Shown here one piece after another: positions 32,078 through 45,991 of a DNA stretch of 51,306 nucleotides. Origin of the DNA: a bacterium (GTDB taxonomy: Bacteria; CLD3; SB21). A program made the translations under genes and the position numbers. Numbering within the stretch: the stretch's first letter is position 1; each line of letters opens with the position of its first letter. The stretch spans positions 1 to 51,306 of the forward strand of contig JAIBAF010000003.1 of assembly GCA_019695335.1 (NCBI GenBank). Direction: 5' to 3'. Below the pieces are notes generated by a model that saw only the letters and a list, made by a program, of their open reading frames with translations, had not been told where the DNA came from and ran no database searches.

Positions 32078-35000
32078 ATGATTAGTTTAATGAAGTATTT
32101 ACTGATATTTGTTGGCGTTTTGTTTTTGCTGGTTGAATCGGATTCTTTATGGGCGCTTGGGCAGCCCAATGTTTCCGTAACGCCGTCTCAAACAAACAAT
32201 TTTGGACAATATACCATCACCAGCTCGACGGGCAATGGTAATACCAATTTAATTGCGAATACGGATAGCATCATCATTTTTTTCGGAAGTGCCACGACTT
32301 TACCTTCAAGCATTGATCCAACGTACATTACTGTCAATAATACCGCAGCCAACGCCGTATCGATATATCCAACGTCCTCTAACCGAATTGCCATTCTGAC
32401 ACCGGTCAATATTGCAAAAAATGGCGGTACTATTACAATTGTGATTTCGGCATTGGCGGAAATTGTTAATCCGGCTTCGGCGGGCAACTACACTCTTCAA
32501 ATCGAAACCACAACAGAGAGAGGATTAATTACTTCAACTAATTATTCAATTTCTGCGTCTTCTTCAACTGTATCACAACCTGCCGTAACGCCTAATCCTT
32601 CGGTTGAGAATTTGTCAGCTGCTTACACGGTTGCATTCAATGTTGGAAGCGGTGGACTTTTGACAACCGGTGTTAGCACTATTACAATCGGCTTTCCGAC
32701 CGCTACCGGAATTCCTAACGGGGGTCTGTCGGGTGTTACCGTTAACGGAACAACTGCAAACGCTTCAGCCAATAATGATACGGTAGTCATCATTGCTCCG
32801 TTAAATGTATCCAATAATGAAGCTGTGTCGGTTGTTTTCAGCCTTGGCACGGGATTGAGCAATCCAACATCCGGTACTTACAATCTCAGCGTTAAAACCA
32901 GTTCTGAGAATACTTACGTCTCATCGGCTAACTATACTATTTCATCATCAAATTCTTTATCGGTTACTGCCGTTACGTTATCACCGACGGTGGTTAATGC
33001 ACAAGCACAATATTCGCTCGATTTTGTGACAAGTTCGACCGGAAGCTTGACAGCAAATACGGATAGCATCGTATTTATCTTTCAACCCAATGCATTTTTG
33101 CCGGCGCTGATCGTCAATTCAAATATTACAATTACGAGCGGGGGATTCAGCGATATTGCAGCAGGTATTGCCATCCAGAAATCTAATTCAGCCGACGATG
33201 ATACATTATTTATTAAAACTCCAATTTCTATAGGAAATTCTTCATCCGTAACTTTGAATATTGCATCCACGGCTGGCATTCTCAATCCTTCGGTTTTAGG
33301 AAATTACTATCTGCGTCTTATGACCAGCAAAGACAGGACACCGGTGTCCTCAAGCGCTTATGCTGTGACTAATACGAGTACCACAGTCTCTCAATCCATT
33401 GTGACTCCGACTTTAACAACTGCCAGTGCGAAATCACCTTATCGCATTGATTTTAATCTGGGAGCGAATGGTCGGTTAAATCCAGGCACGAGTACAATCA
33501 CTTTGACTTTCGCTTCAGGTTACACATTAAGTACGACTGCGTCCGATTATGATTCAACTTATATATCGGTAGCCAGTGGAGCTTTTATTCAAATTCCAAC
33601 CACGAATATTGCGCCGAATAATACTGCAAAGACTATTCAATTTACAATTCCGTCGAGCGTAATCTCACACAACAATGATAACATTGTATTGATTGTAAAA
33701 AGAAGGGTTGGGGCACAGCCCATTACCAATCCAACTGCGGGCAATTATAACTTGGGTGTCAAAACTAGCGTTGAAGCCTCTAATATTAATTCTGCTACTT
33801 ATAACATCGGCGGAACTTCTATTGCTCTTACTGGTATTACATTGTCGAATTCAACTGTAAATAGTAATTCAACATACACGTTTAGTTTCACTGGTAATAA
33901 CTTAAACGGATCCGGAGGCTCGCCTGATGTTATCACAATTACTTTTCCTGAAGGCACTGTTTTACCCGCCACAATTGCTGCGACTAACATAACTTTAAAC
34001 GGTGCTCAGCCAGCAAGCGCTAGCATTAATACATCAACTCGGACTGTTACCGTAACTGTTCAAAATGGTAATGTTTCGAGCCCATTTACGCTGGTACTGG
34101 GATCGACCACAGCCGTTATTTCTAATCCAACGGTTCCAAGTACATCATTTTACAAAGTTACGATGTATACTTCACAAAATCTTGCCCCGGTTACATCGAC
34201 GGCCTATACGATTGCCGGGCATAGTACATCTGTAACGGCAGTAAGTGCTACAGCTAGTCCGTCAGTACAAAATGCCACTAGCAGTATTTATACAGTCACT
34301 TTCACGACATCTTCAACAGGAAAACTCGCCGGTGGAACTGCATCGGGGTCAAGCAGCATCACAATTGCTTTTGGCTCCCGCACAAGAATTCCGTCAAGCA
34401 TCACGGCATCGAGTGTAAAAGTCAATTCAAATGCTTGCCAAACAGTTACCGTATTGACTAGCGGTGACAGCGGTAAAATTAAAATCAATATACCTGATGG
34501 GTTGACTATCGACAACAATACTGCAGTATCCGTCGTATTTGATACATCAGCACGACTGGACAATCGAAATCCATTCGGGACCAGTACGATTGTCGTTAAA
34601 ACGTCATCGGATACGACTAATGCATCCGGGACATATACAATTACACTAACTCAGTTGCTGGCAGTCACTTCTGTTGTACCATCACCATCCAGAATTAATG
34701 CAGCCAGCGGATATTCGATTAAGTTTACCACAGGTTCAAGCGGCGCCTTGAATCAAGGTGATACGATTCGAATTGCTTTTCCTTCCAATACTTTCGTTCC
34801 GTCCAGCATCAATAAAAATGATTTAACGGTAAACGGCATTAATCCATTGGTCAATCCGACTGTAATTGGCGATACGATCAAAGTCAATGTTCCCCAGGCT
34901 GGCGGCATTGCAAATTTAACGAATGTAACGATACTTATTAATAGCGCGGCTGGTATTTTGAATCCGACTACGATTGGAACCTACACCCTTCAGGTGCGTA

Positions 35001-36940
35001 CACAAGCTGAACAAGCGTACGTTGTTTCTCCGACGTATTCAATTACTTCAGGAATTAGTAGTGTTACCACGCCTTCCGTCAGTGTTACTAATCCACGACT
35101 CGCGACGGTATCGCCATATACTGTAAGTTTTAATGTTGGTGCCAATGGCAGGCTAATTGCCGGAAGCAGTACCGTTACTATTACATTTAATGCCAGTACT
35201 ACCGTCAGCGCCACCAATACGAATTATGACAGTACTTATATTACAGTTGATGGCGTAGCTACTCAGATTCCTACAGGTTCTATTTCAATAAGCGGCCAAT
35301 CGGTAACTATGACAATTCCAACAGGTATTTCTATTGATAATAACGACGCAGTGGTGATTACGATTAATCGTATCGGTGCTACGGATCCGGTTACCAATCC
35401 TGGAATCCAGGGAAGTTATACTTTGACAGTGAGAACAAGTGTTGAAACGACCGACGTGACGTCAGGCGCTTATAGTATTTCCAATGTTGCGGCTGTCGCG
35501 ACTATACGAACACATATCACTCCGGATACTGTAAATGCAGCTTCTGTTGATACAATACGGTTTACTGTAGGAAGCACCGGAGCGCTCACGGCCAATAGCG
35601 GAACAATCACTATAACCTTTCCTAGTAATACTTATATTCCTTCATCGATTAATACTTCCAATGTAAGAGTGGCCAGTCAAACCAATAATACTTTTACCAA
35701 TGCATTTGCCGTGAGCACCAATCCATTGTTACGTTCAGTCACTATAACAACTCCGGTTGTGGTCAGCAACAATGATTCAGTTCGGGTTGCTTTTCTAACA
35801 GGGGCAGGGATTGAGAACCCATCGGTTTATGGCGATTATACGTTGAATGTACATACGAGCGCTCAACCGATTGACGGAACAAGCTCTGCTTACACATTGA
35901 AACCAACTGTTTCGACTATATCTAATGTGGCATTATCGGTCACGCCGAATGATACAAGTCAATTTGGACGTTATACGTGGTCATTCAAAACCGGAATGCG
36001 CGGTCGGTTAGTTTCTGGCATCAGTACTATTACGATGATCATTCCATACGATGCGACGTTTACTCAAGGAACTCCGGCGGCTTCAAAAGTGACTGTCAAT
36101 TCAATTGCTGCGGGAAGTGTTAGTCTCAAACAAGGTGTGCTTACCAACGCCGACACACTGGTCGTGACGGTCCCAACGACGGTGACTATCGGTAATTTAG
36201 CGAATGTAACCGTTATTATTGACTCGTCGGCTGGCCTCCGTAACGTCAGCTTTCGAACGGTTTCGACTTATAGTATTTTCACCAGCGTTGAAACTTCCAT
36301 TACGGGAACCGATGTAACATTACCCGTTGAATTAGCTTATTTCAGAACGGAGCAATCTGGTAATGAAATTTTAATAAATTGGAGAACTGAAAGTGAAATT
36401 GAAAACGCATATTGGTTAATCCAAAAAGCAGAAGTCATGACTGAAAATGTTAGCGCAGCCAATCTTGATTTTAAAACGATTGCAACGATAAAAGGACAGG
36501 GGACAAAAACGAATGCAACAGATTATTCATTGAGTGATCGTGATGCACAAGTTGGTAAATCTTATGCTTACAGAATTGCTGATATTTCATACGGTGGTGT
36601 TATAGTATATCATGAAATACAATATGTAACTTTTGTTCAGCCGAAAAAATTCAGTCTGTATCAAAATTATCCTAATCCGTTCAATCCTGTAACAAAAATC
36701 AAATTTGATTTGCCGTATTTAGCCAACGTTAAAATTAAAGTATACAATATCCTTGGACAAGAAGTTGCGGAATTGATTAATAAAGAAATGCCTGCCGGAT
36801 TTCACACATTGGAATGGAATGGTCGAAATGATCGCAATGATATTGTGTCGAGCGGCGTCTATCTTTACCGCATTGTCGCCAATACTTCGGATGGAAAGCA
36901 TAAGTTTAGCTCGACGAAGAAAATGATGCTGATTAAATGA
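32078..36940 (+). CDS. Giant repetitive surface protein with T9SS C-terminal sorting domain
   Basis: A 1620-residue secreted protein. The signal peptide runs from Met5 (MKYLLIFVGVLFLLVES), so translation may start at 32078 or 32090; neither has a strong ribosome-binding site. About ten Ig-like beta repeats of roughly 135-145 residues cover residues 27-1410. Each has a motif like STITITFP, a PSSI turn, NPxxxGxYxLxVxTS and a closing YxI. A linker LPVELAYFRTEQ leads to a fibronectin-like region with INWRTESEIENAYW. The last 100 residues are a type A T9SS sorting domain: FSLYQNYPNPFNPVTKIKFD, VYNILGQEVAEL and SSGVYLYRIVA. Likely a stalk or adhesin at the cell surface, needing type IX machinery elsewhere in the genome. 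Confidence 0.93.
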   Translation: MISLMKYLLIFVGVLFLLVESDSLWALGQPNVSVTPSQTNNFGQYTITSSTGNGNTNLIANTDSIIIFFGSATTLPSSIDPTYITVNNTAANAVSIYPTSSNRIAILTPVNIAKNGGTITIVISALAEIVNPASAGNYTLQIETTTERGLITSTNYSISASSSTVSQPAVTPNPSVENLSAAYTVAFNVGSGGLLTTGVSTITIGFPTATGIPNGGLSGVTVNGTTANASANNDTVVIIAPLNVSNNEAVSVVFSLGTGLSNPTSGTYNLSVKTSSENTYVSSANYTISSSNSLSVTAVTLSPTVVNAQAQYSLDFVTSSTGSLTANTDSIVFIFQPNAFLPALIVNSNITITSGGFSDIAAGIAIQKSNSADDDTLFIKTPISIGNSSSVTLNIASTAGILNPSVLGNYYLRLMTSKDRTPVSSSAYAVTNTSTTVSQSIVTPTLTTASAKSPYRIDFNLGANGRLNPGTSTITLTFASGYTLSTTASDYDSTYISVASGAFIQIPTTNIAPNNTAKTIQFTIPSSVISHNNDNIVLIVKRRVGAQPITNPTAGNYNLGVKTSVEASNINSATYNIGGTSIALTGITLSNSTVNSNSTYTFSFTGNNLNGSGGSPDVITITFPEGTVLPATIAATNITLNGAQPASASINTSTRTVTVTVQNGNVSSPFTLVLGSTTAVISNPTVPSTSFYKVTMYTSQNLAPVTSTAYTIAGHSTSVTAVSATASPSVQNATSSIYTVTFTTSSTGKLAGGTASGSSSITIAFGSRTRIPSSITASSVKVNSNACQTVTVLTSGDSGKIKINIPDGLTIDNNTAVSVVFDTSARLDNRNPFGTSTIVVKTSSDTTNASGTYTITLTQLLAVTSVVPSPSRINAASGYSIKFTTGSSGALNQGDTIRIAFPSNTFVPSSINKNDLTVNGINPLVNPTVIGDTIKVNVPQAGGIANLTNVTILINSAAGILNPTTIGTYTLQVRTQAEQAYVVSPTYSITSGISSVTTPSVSVTNPRLATVSPYTVSFNVGANGRLIAGSSTVTITFNASTTVSATNTNYDSTYITVDGVATQIPTGSISISGQSVTMTIPTGISIDNNDAVVITINRIGATDPVTNPGIQGSYTLTVRTSVETTDVTSGAYSISNVAAVATIRTHITPDTVNAASVDTIRFTVGSTGALTANSGTITITFPSNTYIPSSINTSNVRVASQTNNTFTNAFAVSTNPLLRSVTITTPVVVSNNDSVRVAFLTGAGIENPSVYGDYTLNVHTSAQPIDGTSSAYTLKPTVSTISNVALSVTPNDTSQFGRYTWSFKTGMRGRLVSGISTITMIIPYDATFTQGTPAASKVTVNSIAAGSVSLKQGVLTNADTLVVTVPTTVTIGNLANVTVIIDSSAGLRNVSFRTVSTYSIFTSVETSITGTDVTLPVELAYFRTEQSGNEILINWRTESEIENAYWLIQKAEVMTENVSAANLDFKTIATIKGQGTKTNATDYSLSDRDAQVGKSYAYRIADISYGGVIVYHEIQYVTFVQPKKFSLYQNYPNPFNPVTKIKFDLPYLANVKIKVYNILGQEVAELINKEMPAGFHTLEWNGRNDRNDIVSSGVYLYRIVANTSDGKHKFSSTKKMMLIK
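32159..36310 (+). repeat. Ten diverged tandem repeat units inside the surface protein gene
   Basis: Repeat units of about 400-435 nt start near 32159, 32567, 32954, 33377, 33821, 34225, 34655, 35057, 35490 and 35909. At protein level the units alternate between two subtypes. One has VNA before the first strand (33/54/70/90-type odd units), the other has a TGxxRL or GANGRL turn (even units). Boundaries are approximate. The units are well diverged, so this is an old expansion. Confidence 0.8.
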
Positions 36941-39609: not shown

Positions 39610-40272
39610 GTGGAGTCCAAAAAAAGTAAATCCGGCGGTAAAACGACGGTCGTTATGACGTCGCGTCGAGACGCGGATCTTTTTGATAAATTTGCCGATC
39701 TTGATTACCTCGAAAAAAAATTTGACGAGTACGTTGCACGGTACAAATTATCCAAACGAGAAAAATTTCTCATTCTCAAGGCATTTGACTTTGCCAAATT
39801 AGCTCATAATGGGCAATTACGTGACGAAGGTGTGCCCTATATCAGCCATCCGATCCGTGTAGCTAATATTTTAATGGATGAAGTCGCCGTGATGAAAGGT
39901 GATATGATCTGTGCGGCATTACTCCATGATGTTATTGAAGATTGTGATATTACTCTGCGCGAATTAAAAAATAATTTCAACGATCGCATTGCTCAGATGG
40001 TTAAAACATTGAGCAAAGATCCGTCTCTTGAAAACCATAAAAAAGTTTATTATGAAACGATCGTCAAATCCGATGATGAGGTTAAACTCATTAAAGTATG
40101 TGATCGCCTGGATAATTTAAGATCATTGCGTTTTTCACATAATAAAACTCGTATCCGCCGCTATATCCGTGAAACCGAAAAAAAATATTTACCGCTAGCC
40201 GAAGCAAAAAGTTCCTATATTTTCAGGGAAATGAAACATGAAGTTGTTGTGCTCAAAGGCCGCTTGAAATAG
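39610..40272 (+). CDS. SpoT-type HD hydrolase, stand-alone (small alarmone hydrolase-like)
   Basis: A 220-residue protein with only the (p)ppGpp hydrolase domain of RelA/SpoT. The metal-binding motifs are complete: H66 in AHNGQLRDEGVPYISHPIRV (with H80), H106/D107 in LLHDVIEDCDI, and D165 in KVCDRLDNLRSL. There is no synthetase, TGS or ACT domain. The first 25 residues are Lys/Ser-rich. Start is GTG at 39610 or the ATG at 39655; neither has a strong ribosome-binding site. It would remove 3'-pyrophosphate from (p)ppGpp or a related nucleotide. The nearest RelA-like gene is 24 kb away at 14020. Confidence 0.86.
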   Translation: MESKKSKSGGKTTVVMTSRRDADLFDKFADLDYLEKKFDEYVARYKLSKREKFLILKAFDFAKLAHNGQLRDEGVPYISHPIRVANILMDEVAVMKGDMICAALLHDVIEDCDITLRELKNNFNDRIAQMVKTLSKDPSLENHKKVYYETIVKSDDEVKLIKVCDRLDNLRSLRFSHNKTRIRRYIRETEKKYLPLAEAKSSYIFREMKHEVVVLKGRLK

Positions 40273-40391: not shown

Positions 40392-41609
40392 ATGACACAC
40401 AATGAACTCATCAAAAGTTTGATCCAAAAAACTGATTCAAAAATTATCCTGATAGTTATGGATGGTCTTGGCGGTATTCGGACGAAAGAACATCGCAAAA
40501 CCGAATTAGAATCAGCTAATATTCCAAATATGAATCAACTGGCCAAAGAATCCGTTTGCGGACGTATTATGCCGGTTTCATATGGTATTACGCCTGGGAG
40601 CGGGCCTGCGCATTTTTCATTATTTGGTTATAATCCGACCGATAATAATATCCAAATTGGTCGTGGTGTGCTGGAAGCGCTCGGTTTAGATATGAAACTG
40701 CAAGCCGGCGATGTTGCAACACGGTGTAATTTTGCTACGATAGATGGGAACGGACTTCTAACGGATAGGCGCGCCGGAAGGATTCCAACCGAAGAATGTG
40801 TTCGCCTCTGTGAACTCTTAAAAAAAAATATCCAAAAAATAGATGATGTTGAAGTCATTATTAAAGCGGGCGAGCAATACCGTTTTGTTGTCGTTTTTCG
40901 AGGAAAAAATCTCGACGGATATATCGATGATACGGACCCGCAAGTTACAGGTGTCAAATCGCTTCACGCCAATCCGCGTTCCGAATCATCGAAGCGCATG
41001 GCACAAATTGCGGATAAATTTATTGCTCTGGCCGGTCAAGTTTTAAAAAGTGAGCCTAAAGCCAATGCTGTTTTGATGCGGGGATTTTCAGTACTGCCGC
41101 ACGTGCCCAGCATGAAAGAACGATACGATCTAACTGCTGCATGTATTGCAAGCTATCCATTGTATCGCGGTGTAGCTAGCGTAGTGGGGATGGATGTTTT
41201 GACTACTGGAATGGAAATCAAAGACGAATTTGAAACGTTAAAAACTCATTGGTCCCAATACGATTTTTTCTTTTTGCATGTTAAAAAGACGGATTCGTAC
41301 GGAGAAGACGGAAATCCGGAAGGTAAAATCAAAATTATGGAAGAGGTCGATCGCTTTATTCCGATGGTTCTTGATCTCAAACCCGATGTCATAATGATAA
41401 CCGGCGACCATTCAACGCCTCCTCCGATGAAAAGCCATAGTTGGCATCCGGTGCCATTCTTATTGCATTCAAAAGTGTGTGGAATCGATGATGCCGGCGC
41501 TTTTAATGAATTAGAATGCACCAAAGGCCAACTCAGTAATTTTCCTTCATACTATATTATGGAAATGGCCCTGGCCAATGCCGGTAAACTGAAAAAATTT
41601 GGAGCCTGA
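40392..41609 (+). CDS. apgM: Archaeal-type 2,3-bisphosphoglycerate-independent phosphoglycerate mutase
   Basis: Interconverts 3- and 2-phosphoglycerate in glycolysis and gluconeogenesis. It belongs to the alkaline-phosphatase-fold family of ApgM: IIMDGLGGI-like start (IVMDGLGGIRTKEHRKTE), GITPGSGPAHFSLFGYNPTD with the catalytic Ser region, IQIGRGVLEALGLDMKL, TRCNFATIDGNGLLTDRRAG, and metal-binding FFFLHVKKTDSYGEDG, ITGDHSTPPPMKSHSWHPVP. At 405 residues it is shorter than the bacterial GpmI (about 510), as expected for the archaeal type. It has its own promoter and precedes the CHAD gene by 41 nt. Confidence 0.94.
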   Translation: MTHNELIKSLIQKTDSKIILIVMDGLGGIRTKEHRKTELESANIPNMNQLAKESVCGRIMPVSYGITPGSGPAHFSLFGYNPTDNNIQIGRGVLEALGLDMKLQAGDVATRCNFATIDGNGLLTDRRAGRIPTEECVRLCELLKKNIQKIDDVEVIIKAGEQYRFVVVFRGKNLDGYIDDTDPQVTGVKSLHANPRSESSKRMAQIADKFIALAGQVLKSEPKANAVLMRGFSVLPHVPSMKERYDLTAACIASYPLYRGVASVVGMDVLTTGMEIKDEFETLKTHWSQYDFFFLHVKKTDSYGEDGNPEGKIKIMEEVDRFIPMVLDLKPDVIMITGDHSTPPPMKSHSWHPVPFLLHSKVCGIDDAGAFNELECTKGQLSNFPSYYIMEMALANAGKLKKFGA

Positions 41610-41650: not shown

Positions 41651-42625
41651 ATGCCAGTAGATGCAGGTGCTAGCGCAATTTTGACGACTCGGTTTCAACA
41701 ATGGAAATTGCAGTTTGAACGTATCAAGCGCCGTCAGACTTTAAGCGCTGTTCATGATTTCAGAGTAGCAACCCGAAGATTGCGTGCGGCAATAACCATC
41801 TTTTCTCCTTATCTTAACAAACATTCGTCGGTGCCTTTTGATCAGTTTAAAAAATTTGCACGTCTGTGCGGTATAGCACGCGATCTGGATGTTACAATTG
41901 AACATATTGCAGCGTATCTTCCTAAAATCAGTATCCGTGAACAAAAAGGAGTCCAGTATTTTTTAGAAAGTTACCGCACAAAACGTCGGCAAGAGGGACT
42001 CAAAATTACTGATCAATTTTCCAATGCAAATATTGATCTCATTGAAAATGTTTTTAACGAAACTATTAAGCTGTCGATCATGACGGCGCCGGAATTACCT
42101 GATTTACGCGCACTTTCACGACAGGTAATCGGATCAAAGATAATGGCTGTGTATGAATTTGATGTTGTATGCAGGCGTCCGCTAGAGATCAGTGCATTGC
42201 ACGAGATGAGAATAGCAGTCAAACATCTGCGCTATGTTTTGGAAGTATTCGATAATTGTTTTGATAAAAAGCTCCGTCCTTTTATTGATACGTGTAAGCT
42301 TTTGCAGGATCAATTAGGTTCTATTCATGACGGAGATGTTATGATTGAAGCGTTGCGGTCAGCGATAAAGAAATTTTCTAAATCTCATTTGAATACATGG
42401 CTGTCGTTGATCCAAACAGTTGAAACAATTGATGAAACAAAAATATTGATCGATTCATACAAGCAAATCAAAGTGCAAGATGTCATTCCCGGCCTCATCA
42501 AGCTGTCGGTCCTTCGTATGAATGAACGTGTTCACGCTTACAATAATTTTATAAAATTTTGGAGCCAATATTCTATCGGATTCAAGGAAGAACTTCAGAA
42601 TAATATTGAGAACGGATTGTCATGA
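41651..42625 (+). CDS. CHAD-domain protein
   Basis: CHAD (conserved histidine alpha-helical domain) proteins bind polyphosphate. The 324-residue, nearly all-helical protein has the two expected half-repeats, VHDFRVATRRLRAAITIF (about 34-51, H35) and LHEMRIAVKHLRYVLEVF (about 185-202). Both have the H-x2-R pattern and basic runs. There is no CYTH phosphatase domain; it is a stand-alone CHAD. It overlaps sixA by four nt (42622-42625) and ppx comes next, which points to polyphosphate granule or phosphate control. Cytoplasmic. Confidence 0.9.
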   Translation: MPVDAGASAILTTRFQQWKLQFERIKRRQTLSAVHDFRVATRRLRAAITIFSPYLNKHSSVPFDQFKKFARLCGIARDLDVTIEHIAAYLPKISIREQKGVQYFLESYRTKRRQEGLKITDQFSNANIDLIENVFNETIKLSIMTAPELPDLRALSRQVIGSKIMAVYEFDVVCRRPLEISALHEMRIAVKHLRYVLEVFDNCFDKKLRPFIDTCKLLQDQLGSIHDGDVMIEALRSAIKKFSKSHLNTWLSLIQTVETIDETKILIDSYKQIKVQDVIPGLIKLSVLRMNERVHAYNNFIKFWSQYSIGFKEELQNNIENGLS

Positions 42626-43119
42626 ATATTTACCTGTTACGGCATGGAATTGCTGCAGACATCGGACCAGGAATCAAATCAGATTTTGAAAGACCCCTTA
42701 CTGAAGAAGGCAATAAAGAAATGCGCCTTGAGGCAAAAGGAATGAAAAATCTTGGAATTCAGTTTACGAAAATTTTGGCAAGTCCGTTGATTCGAGCCAA
42801 ACAAACAGCAGAAGTCGTGACTGAAATTCTTGATTGCAGAGGAAAGCTTCAGGAATGCAAAGCATTGGGCATTCCGGCTTCACGTAGTCATTTACTTGAT
42901 GATTTGAAACAGTTTAATTTTGAGGATGAAATCCTTTTGGTTGGACACGAACCTGAAATGGGATATCTGGCTGGATTTTTCATCGGTAATCTTAAATTGC
43001 GTCTTCCATTCAAAAAAGGAAGCTTATGTAAAATTGAAATTTCGCATCTCCAACCCAGCCCGATGGGTGAAATAAAATGGTTTCTGACTCCGAAACAATT
43101 AAAACTGATAGGTAAGTAA
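42622..43119 (+). CDS. sixA: SixA-like phosphohistidine phosphatase
   Basis: A 165-residue histidine-phosphatase (phosphoglycerate-mutase superfamily) protein. The catalytic motif is YLLRHGIAADIG with the RHG signature, a second Arg in SPLIRAKQTAEVV, and the late His in LLVGHEPEMGYLAG. SixA removes phosphate from histidine on HPt or PTS proteins in E. coli. It starts in the CHAD stop and its own stop overlaps the ppx ATG (TAATG), so the three genes form one tightly coupled unit. Confidence 0.9.
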   Translation: MNIYLLRHGIAADIGPGIKSDFERPLTEEGNKEMRLEAKGMKNLGIQFTKILASPLIRAKQTAEVVTEILDCRGKLQECKALGIPASRSHLLDDLKQFNFEDEILLVGHEPEMGYLAGFFIGNLKLRLPFKKGSLCKIEISHLQPSPMGEIKWFLTPKQLKLIGK

Positions 43120-44696
43120 TGAATTTGGCCAGCCGTTTAATAACACATCGGAAAAAAAATAATACCTACTTGGCCGCCATCGATATTGGAACAAATTCTT
43201 TTCATTTAGTGGTTGTAGAAATTTTGGCTGACGGCAAATTCAAGATTATTGACCGGGCAAAAGAAAATGTCCGGCTTGGTCATGGCGGCAAAGATATGAA
43301 ATTAATTTCACCTGAAGCCATGCAGCGTGGCGTTGCGGCATTGAAGCGTTATGCCGGGATTGCGCAGTCTTTCAATGCGCCAATTCGGGCTGTGGCTACA
43401 AGTGCGGTGAGGGAAGCGCTGAACCAGGCGGAATTCGTCAAACGCATTCACGATGCCACCGGAATCGATGTCGAAATCGTATCGGGCGTCGAAGAAGCAC
43501 GGTTGATCTATCTTGGAATTTTGCAGGCATTACCGGTATTCGATAACCAAATTTTGATGATCGATATTGGCGGCGGGAGCGTGGAATATCTTATTGGCAA
43601 ACGCGGAGAAGCAGTGTTGTCGAACAGTCTGAAATTAGGACATATCCGGCTGACTGAGCGTTTTTTTAAGCGCGATAGTTTACGTGAAAAAGATATTGAA
43701 ACTTGCCGGGAACACATACGTGGATTTCTATCATCATTGAGCCGTGAAATGCGCGCATACAAATATGATTTTGCCATTGGAAGTTCTGGAACTATACAAA
43801 ATGTTGCCAATATGATTAAAGGCTTGCGTGGTGAAATTTTGAACACGCAATTAAACAATTTTTCGTTTACACGTGATGAATTGTCAGAAATTGTAAAAAT
43901 GATCCTGAAGGCAAAAACACCTAAAGATCGATTAAAAATTCGAGGGCTTGATCCGAAAAGAGCCGACGTGATCGTTGCCGGTGCGATGGTGTTAGAAGAA
44001 TCGTTTAAGGCTCTGCGAATTAAGCGCCTTACAGTGTCCGAGTTTGCACTGAGAGAAGGCATCATTTATGATTATTTACAAAATCGAATTTATCAAGGTG
44101 ATCATGCACATCATTTAGCAAATATTCGTTATAAAAGTGTTCAACGTTTATCGGAGCTTTTTCACAATGACGCCAAACATGCTGAACATACCGTACGCAT
44201 TGCTTTGTCACTATTCGATCAATTAAAATCTCTCCATAAACTGGGAGAACGAGAACGAGAATTCCTGGAGTATGCGACCATTTTGCACGAGATAGGTTTT
44301 TTCGTATCGCACGCACAGCACCATCGACACTCGTATTACCTGATTCGCAATTCTGAGCTTTCAGGTTTTACTGATCACGAAAAAGAGATCATAGCGAACA
44401 TCGCGCGTTATCACCGAAAAAGCCATCCGAAAACCAAACATGAGGGGTTTGCAGCGCTTGCTCCAAAAGATCAATTGCTTGTGAGAAAACTTTCAGGCCT
44501 GCTCCGCATAGCCGATGGGCTGGACAGAACTCACAATGGCGTTGTTGCTTCCGTTAAATGTAAAATTGAGCCAAGAAGGGTAATTTTGATAGTACGATCG
44601 GGGGTTAATTTGGAATTGGAAATGTGGGCGGTAAATATGAAAAAAGGGCTATTCGAGGAAGTGTTTCATAAGCAAATCATTCTCAAATCATATTAA
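43119..44696 (+). CDS. ppx: Ppx/GppA-family exopolyphosphatase or pppGpp phosphatase
   Basis: A 525-residue enzyme that removes terminal phosphate from polyphosphate and/or converts pppGpp to ppGpp. The N-terminal ASKHA domain has AIDIGTNSFHLVVVEI (phosphate 1), ATSAVREALNQAEFV and MIDIGGGSVEYLIG (phosphate 2). The C-terminal third (about 345-525) is an HD-like helical domain: DAKHAEHTVRIALSLFDQL, TILHEIGFFVSHAQHHRHSY and NIARYHRKSHPK. It follows CHAD and SixA with one-base overlap. Its last bases overlap the 3' end of the convergent PLD gene by 4 nt. Confidence 0.92.
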   Translation: MNLASRLITHRKKNNTYLAAIDIGTNSFHLVVVEILADGKFKIIDRAKENVRLGHGGKDMKLISPEAMQRGVAALKRYAGIAQSFNAPIRAVATSAVREALNQAEFVKRIHDATGIDVEIVSGVEEARLIYLGILQALPVFDNQILMIDIGGGSVEYLIGKRGEAVLSNSLKLGHIRLTERFFKRDSLREKDIETCREHIRGFLSSLSREMRAYKYDFAIGSSGTIQNVANMIKGLRGEILNTQLNNFSFTRDELSEIVKMILKAKTPKDRLKIRGLDPKRADVIVAGAMVLEESFKALRIKRLTVSEFALREGIIYDYLQNRIYQGDHAHHLANIRYKSVQRLSELFHNDAKHAEHTVRIALSLFDQLKSLHKLGEREREFLEYATILHEIGFFVSHAQHHRHSYYLIRNSELSGFTDHEKEIIANIARYHRKSHPKTKHEGFAALAPKDQLLVRKLSGLLRIADGLDRTHNGVVASVKCKIEPRRVILIVRSGVNLELEMWAVNMKKGLFEEVFHKQIILKSY

Positions 44697-45991
44697 TCTT
44701 CAATATTACCGTCATCCATCTCATCTGATGCTTTAATAGATTTTGAACTATCTTTGGCGCGGATGAACCTTGCATAGAACTCCTGCAGATATTGATTCAC
44801 AATCTTCCGATCTCTTATAATAAGAAAATTATCATCGTTAACTTCATTGGCATTCTTGCTAAAATTTAACGATCCCGTAATGACGATCGGAATATCATTG
44901 GTATCGGGATTCTCAGCGTCGATCAATATATATTTATGATGTAAATGACGGTCTTCGACGGCCAGATAGGCCTCGGCCTTTTTTTCCCATGGTTTTTTTG
45001 ATTTCTCGTTTTGTGTCATTGCAGAATACAAGCTCCAATACTGCTTGCCCAACGACGGCTCAAACACGGCCTTAAGATCAAGGCCTTTCTTATCAAATTT
45101 TTCTTTGATCGCCTCATCGATTTCAATTCCCGTACTAAATGAAAATGCACAAATTTTAATGTCATGTTGCGTTTCTTTGGTAACCAGATCAGCCAATAAA
45201 TCGAGAAAACTGGTTTTTCCTGCTTTCAAATTCATCGGTGTAAAATACGCATCGATCATAGTGCCATTGAGCGTAATTCGATTACTGGAAACTTTGTTTT
45301 TGTATTGATGAAATCTGGCAGCACTGGTATCCGGTACCGATGATGAACCGCCCCACATGATCTCAAATTCTTCAGTATAAATTTTCGCCAAGGCCCGGCT
45401 TTGAACTTGAATCATATTTTGCATGCTTACGAGGCCGGTAATAGTGAAATTATAAGAACCTGTAATAACGACATCATCTGTCGAATCGGGTGAAAGATAA
45501 TCGGCGATGAGGAATTTATGATGCATTTGAGCACGGTGTCCTTTGTAATAGTTGGCTTTGGATTGTACCCACGGCCAACCGGCATCGCTCATGATTGGAA
45601 TTTTATATCGTTTCTCTAATAATTGCCGCGCCGTTTTCCACAATTCGGAATTATTTTTTGGAGCAGCTTCATCATCAAATATGATTCGCACTCGTACGCC
45701 ACGTTCATGGGCTCTGCACAAAGCTACAACTATATTCAAACTGTTTAATTCGTAAGAAGTCAGGTCAATACTTTGGTGAGCCGCATTGATCACATCGATT
45801 ACGCGTTGCTCAAGGTTTTCATTACCGTTTGCCAAATTACCGGGGAATGAGTACGCACTATCAATCGTTCCGTTAAAAAAAACAAACGCTTTATTATTTA
45901 ATGAAGTGGTGGGATGTAAGTTATACTGAATTTGTCCAAACGTGTGGCTTGAAAATAGAATTAAGCAGAAAAATTTGAATAAGTTTATCAT
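44693..45991 (-). CDS. Secreted phospholipase D-like (PLDc) protein
   Basis: A 432-residue phosphodiesterase-type protein exported by a signal peptide (MINLFKFFCLILFSSHTFGQ). It has two HKD motifs, HHKFLIAD and HHKYILID, each followed by an Asn motif, GSYNFT and GSLNFSKNA. Family members cleave or transfer phosphodiesters in phospholipids or nucleic acid. The substrate here is unknown. It is divergent from dnaK with a 320-nt gap and converges on ppx (4-nt overlap). The C-terminal tail is acidic (SDEMDDGNIED). Confidence 0.9.
   Translation of the reverse strand: MINLFKFFCLILFSSHTFGQIQYNLHPTTSLNNKAFVFFNGTIDSAYSFPGNLANGNENLEQRVIDVINAAHQSIDLTSYELNSLNIVVALCRAHERGVRVRIIFDDEAAPKNNSELWKTARQLLEKRYKIPIMSDAGWPWVQSKANYYKGHRAQMHHKFLIADYLSPDSTDDVVITGSYNFTITGLVSMQNMIQVQSRALAKIYTEEFEIMWGGSSSVPDTSAARFHQYKNKVSSNRITLNGTMIDAYFTPMNLKAGKTSFLDLLADLVTKETQHDIKICAFSFSTGIEIDEAIKEKFDKKGLDLKAVFEPSLGKQYWSLYSAMTQNEKSKKPWEKKAEAYLAVEDRHLHHKYILIDAENPDTNDIPIVITGSLNFSKNANEVNDDNFLIIRDRKIVNQYLQEFYARFIRAKDSSKSIKASDEMDDGNIED

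Follow-up and report, generated by a model that had tools for sequence, protein, structure and literature searches.

The window analysed here is a stretch of 51,306 nucleotides from a bacterium of the lineage CLD3; SB21 (assembly GCA_019695335.1, contig JAIBAF010000003.1, positions 1 to 51,306). Its forward strand carries three joined genes, which encode a CHAD protein (41651..42625, 324 amino acids), a SixA-type histidine phosphatase (42622..43119, 165 amino acids), and a long Ppx/GppA phosphatase (43119..44696, 525 amino acids). All three open reading frames are intact, lie on the same strand, and start with ATG; CHAD and SixA overlap by 4 bases, and SixA and Ppx overlap by 1 base. The initial annotation had described this coupled trio, and both the reading frame coordinates and the domain searches confirm it. 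The genes are presumably co-transcribed; the promoter and terminator counts around the locus are no higher than in shuffled sequence. In addition, an apgM-type gene for a cofactor-independent phosphoglycerate mutase (40392..41609, forward strand; 579 bits against NF003160, cut-off 468), not mentioned in the initial annotation, lies 41 bases before CHAD and is the first gene of a conserved run apgM-(CHAD)-SixA-Ppx. We consider it highly probable that this locus is a polyphosphate (polyP) turnover cluster; its stable part is SixA-Ppx, and CHAD is optional.

The CHAD protein matches PF05235 over residues 9-236 (123.6 bits against a curated cut-off of 25.6; 1.6e-35), and it is a stand-alone CHAD because no second domain was matched. 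By a manual residue count on the alignment, its H35, R38, R42, R77, and R194/Y195 correspond to His253, Arg256, Arg260, Arg296, and Arg418/Tyr419 of CtCHAD, where alanine mutants show a 6- to 150-fold decrease in polyP affinity according to the available text of PMC6537752. The protein is, therefore, a predicted polyP binder whose contact residues are proven in other CHADs.

The SixA protein scores 81.5 bits against the equivalog model TIGR00249, above the cut-off of 74.5, and matches His_Phos_1 (9.2e-9). When it is aligned with Escherichia coli SixA (1ujb), the catalytic set is complete, consisting of R7, H8 (in the RHG nucleophile motif), R58, and H109, and these four residues are invariant in all 14 aligned relatives. 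We predict it to be a catalytically complete phosphatase. CHAD and SixA each occur as a single copy in the window's genome (E <= 0.001), and a second, shorter Ppx is encoded on a different contig.

The third protein comprises an ASKHA domain and an HD-like domain III (PF02541, PF21447, PF01966), with the Ppx-GppA domain matched at 2.8e-73 and domain III at 2.2e-35. Its score against exo_poly_only (TIGR03706) is 287.8, slightly below the cut-off of 307, while its scores against the PPX model PRK10854 (251.8, cut-off 864) and against the GppA model (253.2) are far below the respective cut-offs. Because all the PPX and GppA cut-offs are missed, these scores do not separate PPX from GppA, and the protein is filed as Ppx/GppA only. 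The closest solved structure is the exopolyphosphatase 8jgo (2.2e-76), and the catalytic Glu of the fold is retained, since the Glu of VSGVEEA aligns with the 8jgo Glu that is Ala in 8jgt.

Conservation was examined first of all in the phylum set, which consists of nine genomes including the window's: seven in the window's family and two (G001 and G002) in the other family of the class. In all seven family genomes, SixA and Ppx are direct neighbours and follow apgM. A CHAD gene lies between apgM and SixA in three of them, namely, the window's, G003, and G004; the other four (G005-G008) have a different CHAD elsewhere, which is 16-25% identical to the CHADs of the first three. The initial annotation had set out beforehand that the trio should stay together in relatives and had proposed to name it as a unit. 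CHAD is outside the cluster in four of the seven family genomes, and in another phylum only 5 of the 60 loci with a stand-alone CHAD have the complete trio (see below); that proposal is not supported, and a fixed trio is rejected. Even where CHAD is present, it diverges: between the window and G004, the CHADs of the cluster share only 28% identity, against 54% for SixA and 61% for Ppx, which indicates that CHAD is either fast-evolving or replaced.

In the other family, G001 has the order SixA-PPK1-Ppx-NUDIX, in which SixA overlaps PPK1 by 4 bases. This gene group belongs to a dense polyP region (L047, G001:C15:44000-60000), which within about 10 kb also contains a double PPK2 and a VTC-domain gene. 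In G002, no CHAD, SixA, PPK1, or PPK2 was found in the genome, which has just a short Ppx. Across the nine genomes of the set, SixA is present in all eight that have PPK1 and missing from the single one that does not.

The second sample consists of 296 genomes from the phylum of an Ignavibacteria metagenome-assembled genome (G009). CHAD matches were found in 129 of these, from which two groups of loci were examined: 60 with a stand-alone CHAD and the 20 with the highest scores, the latter almost all with long CHADs. Note that some loci end at contig edges, that CHAD was not recovered by the domain model in 2 of the 60, and that stops interrupt the CHADs of L093, L097, and L099, which entered the count as fragments. 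Among the 60 loci, SixA occurs within 200 bases of CHAD in six and Ppx within 2.5 kb in six; all three genes are found in five (L093, L095, L098, L101, and L104), in various orders and in one case with PPK1. At the 20 top-scoring loci, the genes within 2.5 kb include SixA once, Ppx never, and PPK1 11 times. By chance, about 0.23 of the 60 loci would have SixA beside CHAD, a rough value that assumes 1.4 SixA genes per genome and ignores relatedness.

A SixA search of the same 296 genomes, in which 40 regions beyond the CHAD-derived ones were examined in rank order with few skipped, independently revealed a sixth genome with CHAD-SixA-Ppx (L199). Of the remaining regions, L223 has PPK1 at a distance of about 2.7 kb, and 38 have no CHAD, Ppx, or PPK1. 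Genomes with polyP-linked clusters can also have an additional SixA outside them (G129, G064, G260, and G252). Among plasmids, the three Thermus records examined of five matching ones contain Ppx-SixA-CHAD, SixA-CHAD followed by Ppx and PPK1, and PPK1-SixA with Ppx, so that PPK1 and Ppx are nearby in all three, whereas a SixA on an Ilyobacter plasmid has no polyP genes among its neighbours. The assignment of the three genes to polyP metabolism in the initial annotation is upheld by these comparisons, since several phyla have SixA-type phosphatases in the company of CHAD, Ppx, and PPK1.

Two of these clusters contain additional genes. In L199 (785-2402, genome G249) and L093 (2324-3740, minus strand, genome G129), SixA and Ppx are separated by a tandem pair of PF02223 genes; the Walker A motif is GSGKSTQ in one and GVGRSTQ, with Lys replaced by Arg, in the second. 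The best solved match of both is 2plr, 'Probable thymidylate kinase', with 201 bits (next 54) and 135 bits (next 51), which we take to come from Sulfolobus tokodaii. Each genome has a separate weak tmk-like match, and in a plasmid search with the thymidylate-kinase-like protein all matches were below 60% identity, the annotated ones among the matches listed being tmk/dTMP kinase. G129 and G249 are the two of the seven genomes in this sample with stand-alone CHAD and SixA together in which PPK1 was not detected by genome search. The idea that the pair supplies the missing polyP synthase is weakened by the presence of PPK2 in both genomes; a polyP- or SixA-linked kinase is possible.

In the interpretation that we favour, with moderate confidence, the window contains a polyP-turnover operon apgM-(CHAD)-SixA-Ppx with SixA-Ppx as its stable part, and SixA acts on a phosphohistidine enzyme of the exchange between polyP and nucleoside triphosphates (NTPs). 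The CHAD protein would hold polyP chains in its basic pore by means of the contact residues described above, and Ppx, following the function of its family, would release phosphate from the chain ends. SixA would most likely remove phosphoryl groups from the phosphohistidine enzyme, for which the PPK1 intermediate is the first candidate. PPK1 works via a phosphohistidine, and it is ranked first because of this property and the precedent of Ndk, helped by the SixA/PPK1 overlap in G001. If SixA dephosphorylated PPK1, synthesis would be damped while Ppx degrades polyP. The precedent itself is that E. coli SixA strips the catalytic phosphohistidine intermediate from Ndk (accessible text of PMC12934123), and by analogy phosphohistidine control of polyP flux is plausible. 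Switching between polyP synthesis and breakdown is poorly understood, and the same action on PPK1 would be a direct off-switch for synthesis.

Several observations weigh against this interpretation. The window's genome has one PPK1, on contig C10, and one PPK2, both outside the cluster; four of the seven family clusters lack CHAD; G001 has no CHAD gene anywhere in its genome; and G129 and G249 have the cluster without a detected PPK1. The third gene could also be GppA rather than PPX. Moreover, a SixA/PPX/CHAD neighbourhood is present in the Sulfolobales, for which no enzyme of polyP synthesis is said to have been identified (PMC10892726, in the part available). The candidate targets of SixA are the PPK1 phosphohistidine, the polyP-contacting histidine of CHAD, Ndk, and polyP. 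None is constant across clusters, because G001 has a SixA cluster and no CHAD and because PPK1 was not detected in G129 and G249. Co-occurrence singles out no target either, since in 16 checked genomes with a polyP-linked SixA, PPK1 is found in 14, CHAD in 15, and PPK2 in 15. PPK1 as the main target is a tentative choice, more likely wrong than right.

An alternative is that the SixA-like enzyme is no protein phosphatase here but directly cleaves polyP, at chain ends or as short chains, or hydrolyses a nucleotide or other metabolite, as other histidine phosphatases do, with a lysine pair helping to bind the polyanion. The constancy of the polyP theme across clusters in which no single protein partner is constant is consistent with this, as is the segment K131-K132-G133 (KKG) of the window's SixA. 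This segment is present in all 14 aligned polyP-linked SixAs; at the aligned columns it occurs in 18 of 19 polyP-linked SixAs against 6 of 40 unlinked ones (8 of 40 if counted anywhere past residue 100), with L223, which has KKS instead, scored as unlinked. In the alignment with 1ujb, E. coli SixA has no lysines at these columns. However, on the SixA tree the linked label needs 4 changes, where shuffles average 16, and the association of KKG with polyP linkage provides one independent pair on supported branches. With just one usable pair, KKG is not separable from ancestry, and we retain it as a lead and not as an established signature. Five of the seven best SixA matches in the 296-genome sample were members of the query alignment (A1), which leaves L101 and L199 as the only independent ones; the L199 SixA turned out to be polyP-linked. 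The KKG segment may be a marker of substrate class. Together with the position of the window's SixA above the equivalog cut-off, the dependence on ancestry makes direct hydrolysis an unlikely explanation. A broader proposal, that SixAs of the KKG type form a functional class that resets phospho- or polyphosphoryl-histidine on PPK1, CHAD, or another kinase (for example, the thymidylate-kinase-like pair), and that phosphohistidine is a general control of polyP flux in bacteria and archaea, is speculative and still less likely to be correct.

In another model, the substrate of SixA is a CHAD histidine that carries phosphoryl or polyphosphoryl groups, and their removal frees CHAD for polyP binding or release. 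CHAD histidines were suggested as phosphoacceptors in 2002 (Iyer & Aravind 2002, as cited in the accessible text of PMC6537752), all 10 aligned CHADs have both H35 and H184, and CHAD and SixA overlap or almost touch in the window, L098, L101, L104, L106, and two Thermus plasmids. This model does not account for the SixA-PPK1-Ppx group of G001 in a genome without CHAD, nor for the four family clusters that lack CHAD, and no SixA was detected near CHAD at 54 of the 60 stand-alone CHAD loci. In addition, a phosphorylated CHAD was not met in the parts of the literature consulted. We consider this model quite unlikely.

It is very unlikely that the third gene encodes a GppA-type pppGpp phosphatase and that the stretch functions in part as an alarmone operon. 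Just before apgM, two genes before CHAD, positions 39610-40272 encode a hydrolase-like HD protein of the RelA/SpoT type (HD_4, 220 amino acids), which makes an alarmone link possible, and the GppA and PPX model scores are almost equal. However, HD_4 adjoins apgM only in the window's genus (the window and G003), the closest solved structures are exopolyphosphatases, and the CHAD and PPK1 neighbours in other lineages indicate polyP. Inherited synteny without functional coupling would explain why apgM and the flanking PLD-like gene, with no evident polyP role, are equally conserved beside SixA-Ppx in the family, but it is the least likely explanation because CHAD, SixA, Ppx, and PPK1 are again grouped, with the gene order changed, in lineages that are not related, and SixA-CHAD adjacency far exceeds the rough chance value.

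This PLD-like gene (44693..45991, reverse strand; PF13091, 7.3e-40) is convergent on Ppx in all seven family genomes and is probably a syntenic flank outside the function of the cluster. The possibility that it is a disguised PPK was rejected since it has no PPK family match in Pfam, in contrast to a Thermus gene on NZ_AP025618.1 (L055:2645-4462), which is annotated as 'phospholipase D-like' and matches PPK1 domains, that is, a misannotated polyphosphate kinase. Elsewhere in the window (32078-36940), a repetitive protein of 1620 amino acids has a C-terminal 'YPNPFNP' segment, which presumably resembles type IX secretion sorting signals.

In substance, the gene grouping is already in print (PMC10892726; PMC8003754; Iyer & Aravind 2002 as cited in PMC6537752, as far as these texts were accessible). 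In the Sulfolobales, CHAD, SixA, PPX, and dTMP kinase are in one conserved neighbourhood according to the Figure 2 legend of PMC10892726. CHAD, SixA, and PPX are common to that group and the window, while the Sulfolobales group, here compared by its legend and not by gene order, is archaeal and has dTMP kinase and ProC; a kinase gene is missing from the window, which has apgM. According to section 2.7 of a 2021 paper (PMC8003754), the genes that most often follow ppk include those for PPX, NUDIX, and histidine phosphatases, and the available text proposes a Streptomyces CHAD protein as an accessory to exopolyphosphatases. In the ppk-pptA(CHAD)-nudix operon described there, as in the window, a stand-alone CHAD accompanies a polyP enzyme; the Streptomyces genes are co-transcribed and include PPK and a nudix hydrolase, without SixA and Ppx. 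The PPK-SixA-PPX phosphate islands of HIMB59 likewise have SixA beside or near an exopolyphosphatase, but contain PPK and pst/pho genes, and the accessible part of PMC10734472 does not mention CHAD. On the Thermus plasmids (NZ_AP025618.1 and NC_019387.1), Ppx, SixA, and CHAD are adjacent or near with a 4-base SixA/CHAD overlap, like the window; the gene order differs, PPK1 is inside the cluster, and the clusters are plasmid-borne. E. coli SixA, whose targets are NPr and Ndk (PMC6282199, PMC12934123, and PMC7948535, in the parts available), shares with the window's SixA the fold family, the catalytic residues, and a score above the equivalog cut-off, whereas the KKG segment is absent from the E. 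coli protein. The locus is therefore one further version of a polyP-turnover cluster of known kind, and the window adds a lineage whose conserved core is SixA-Ppx, not the CHAD trio.

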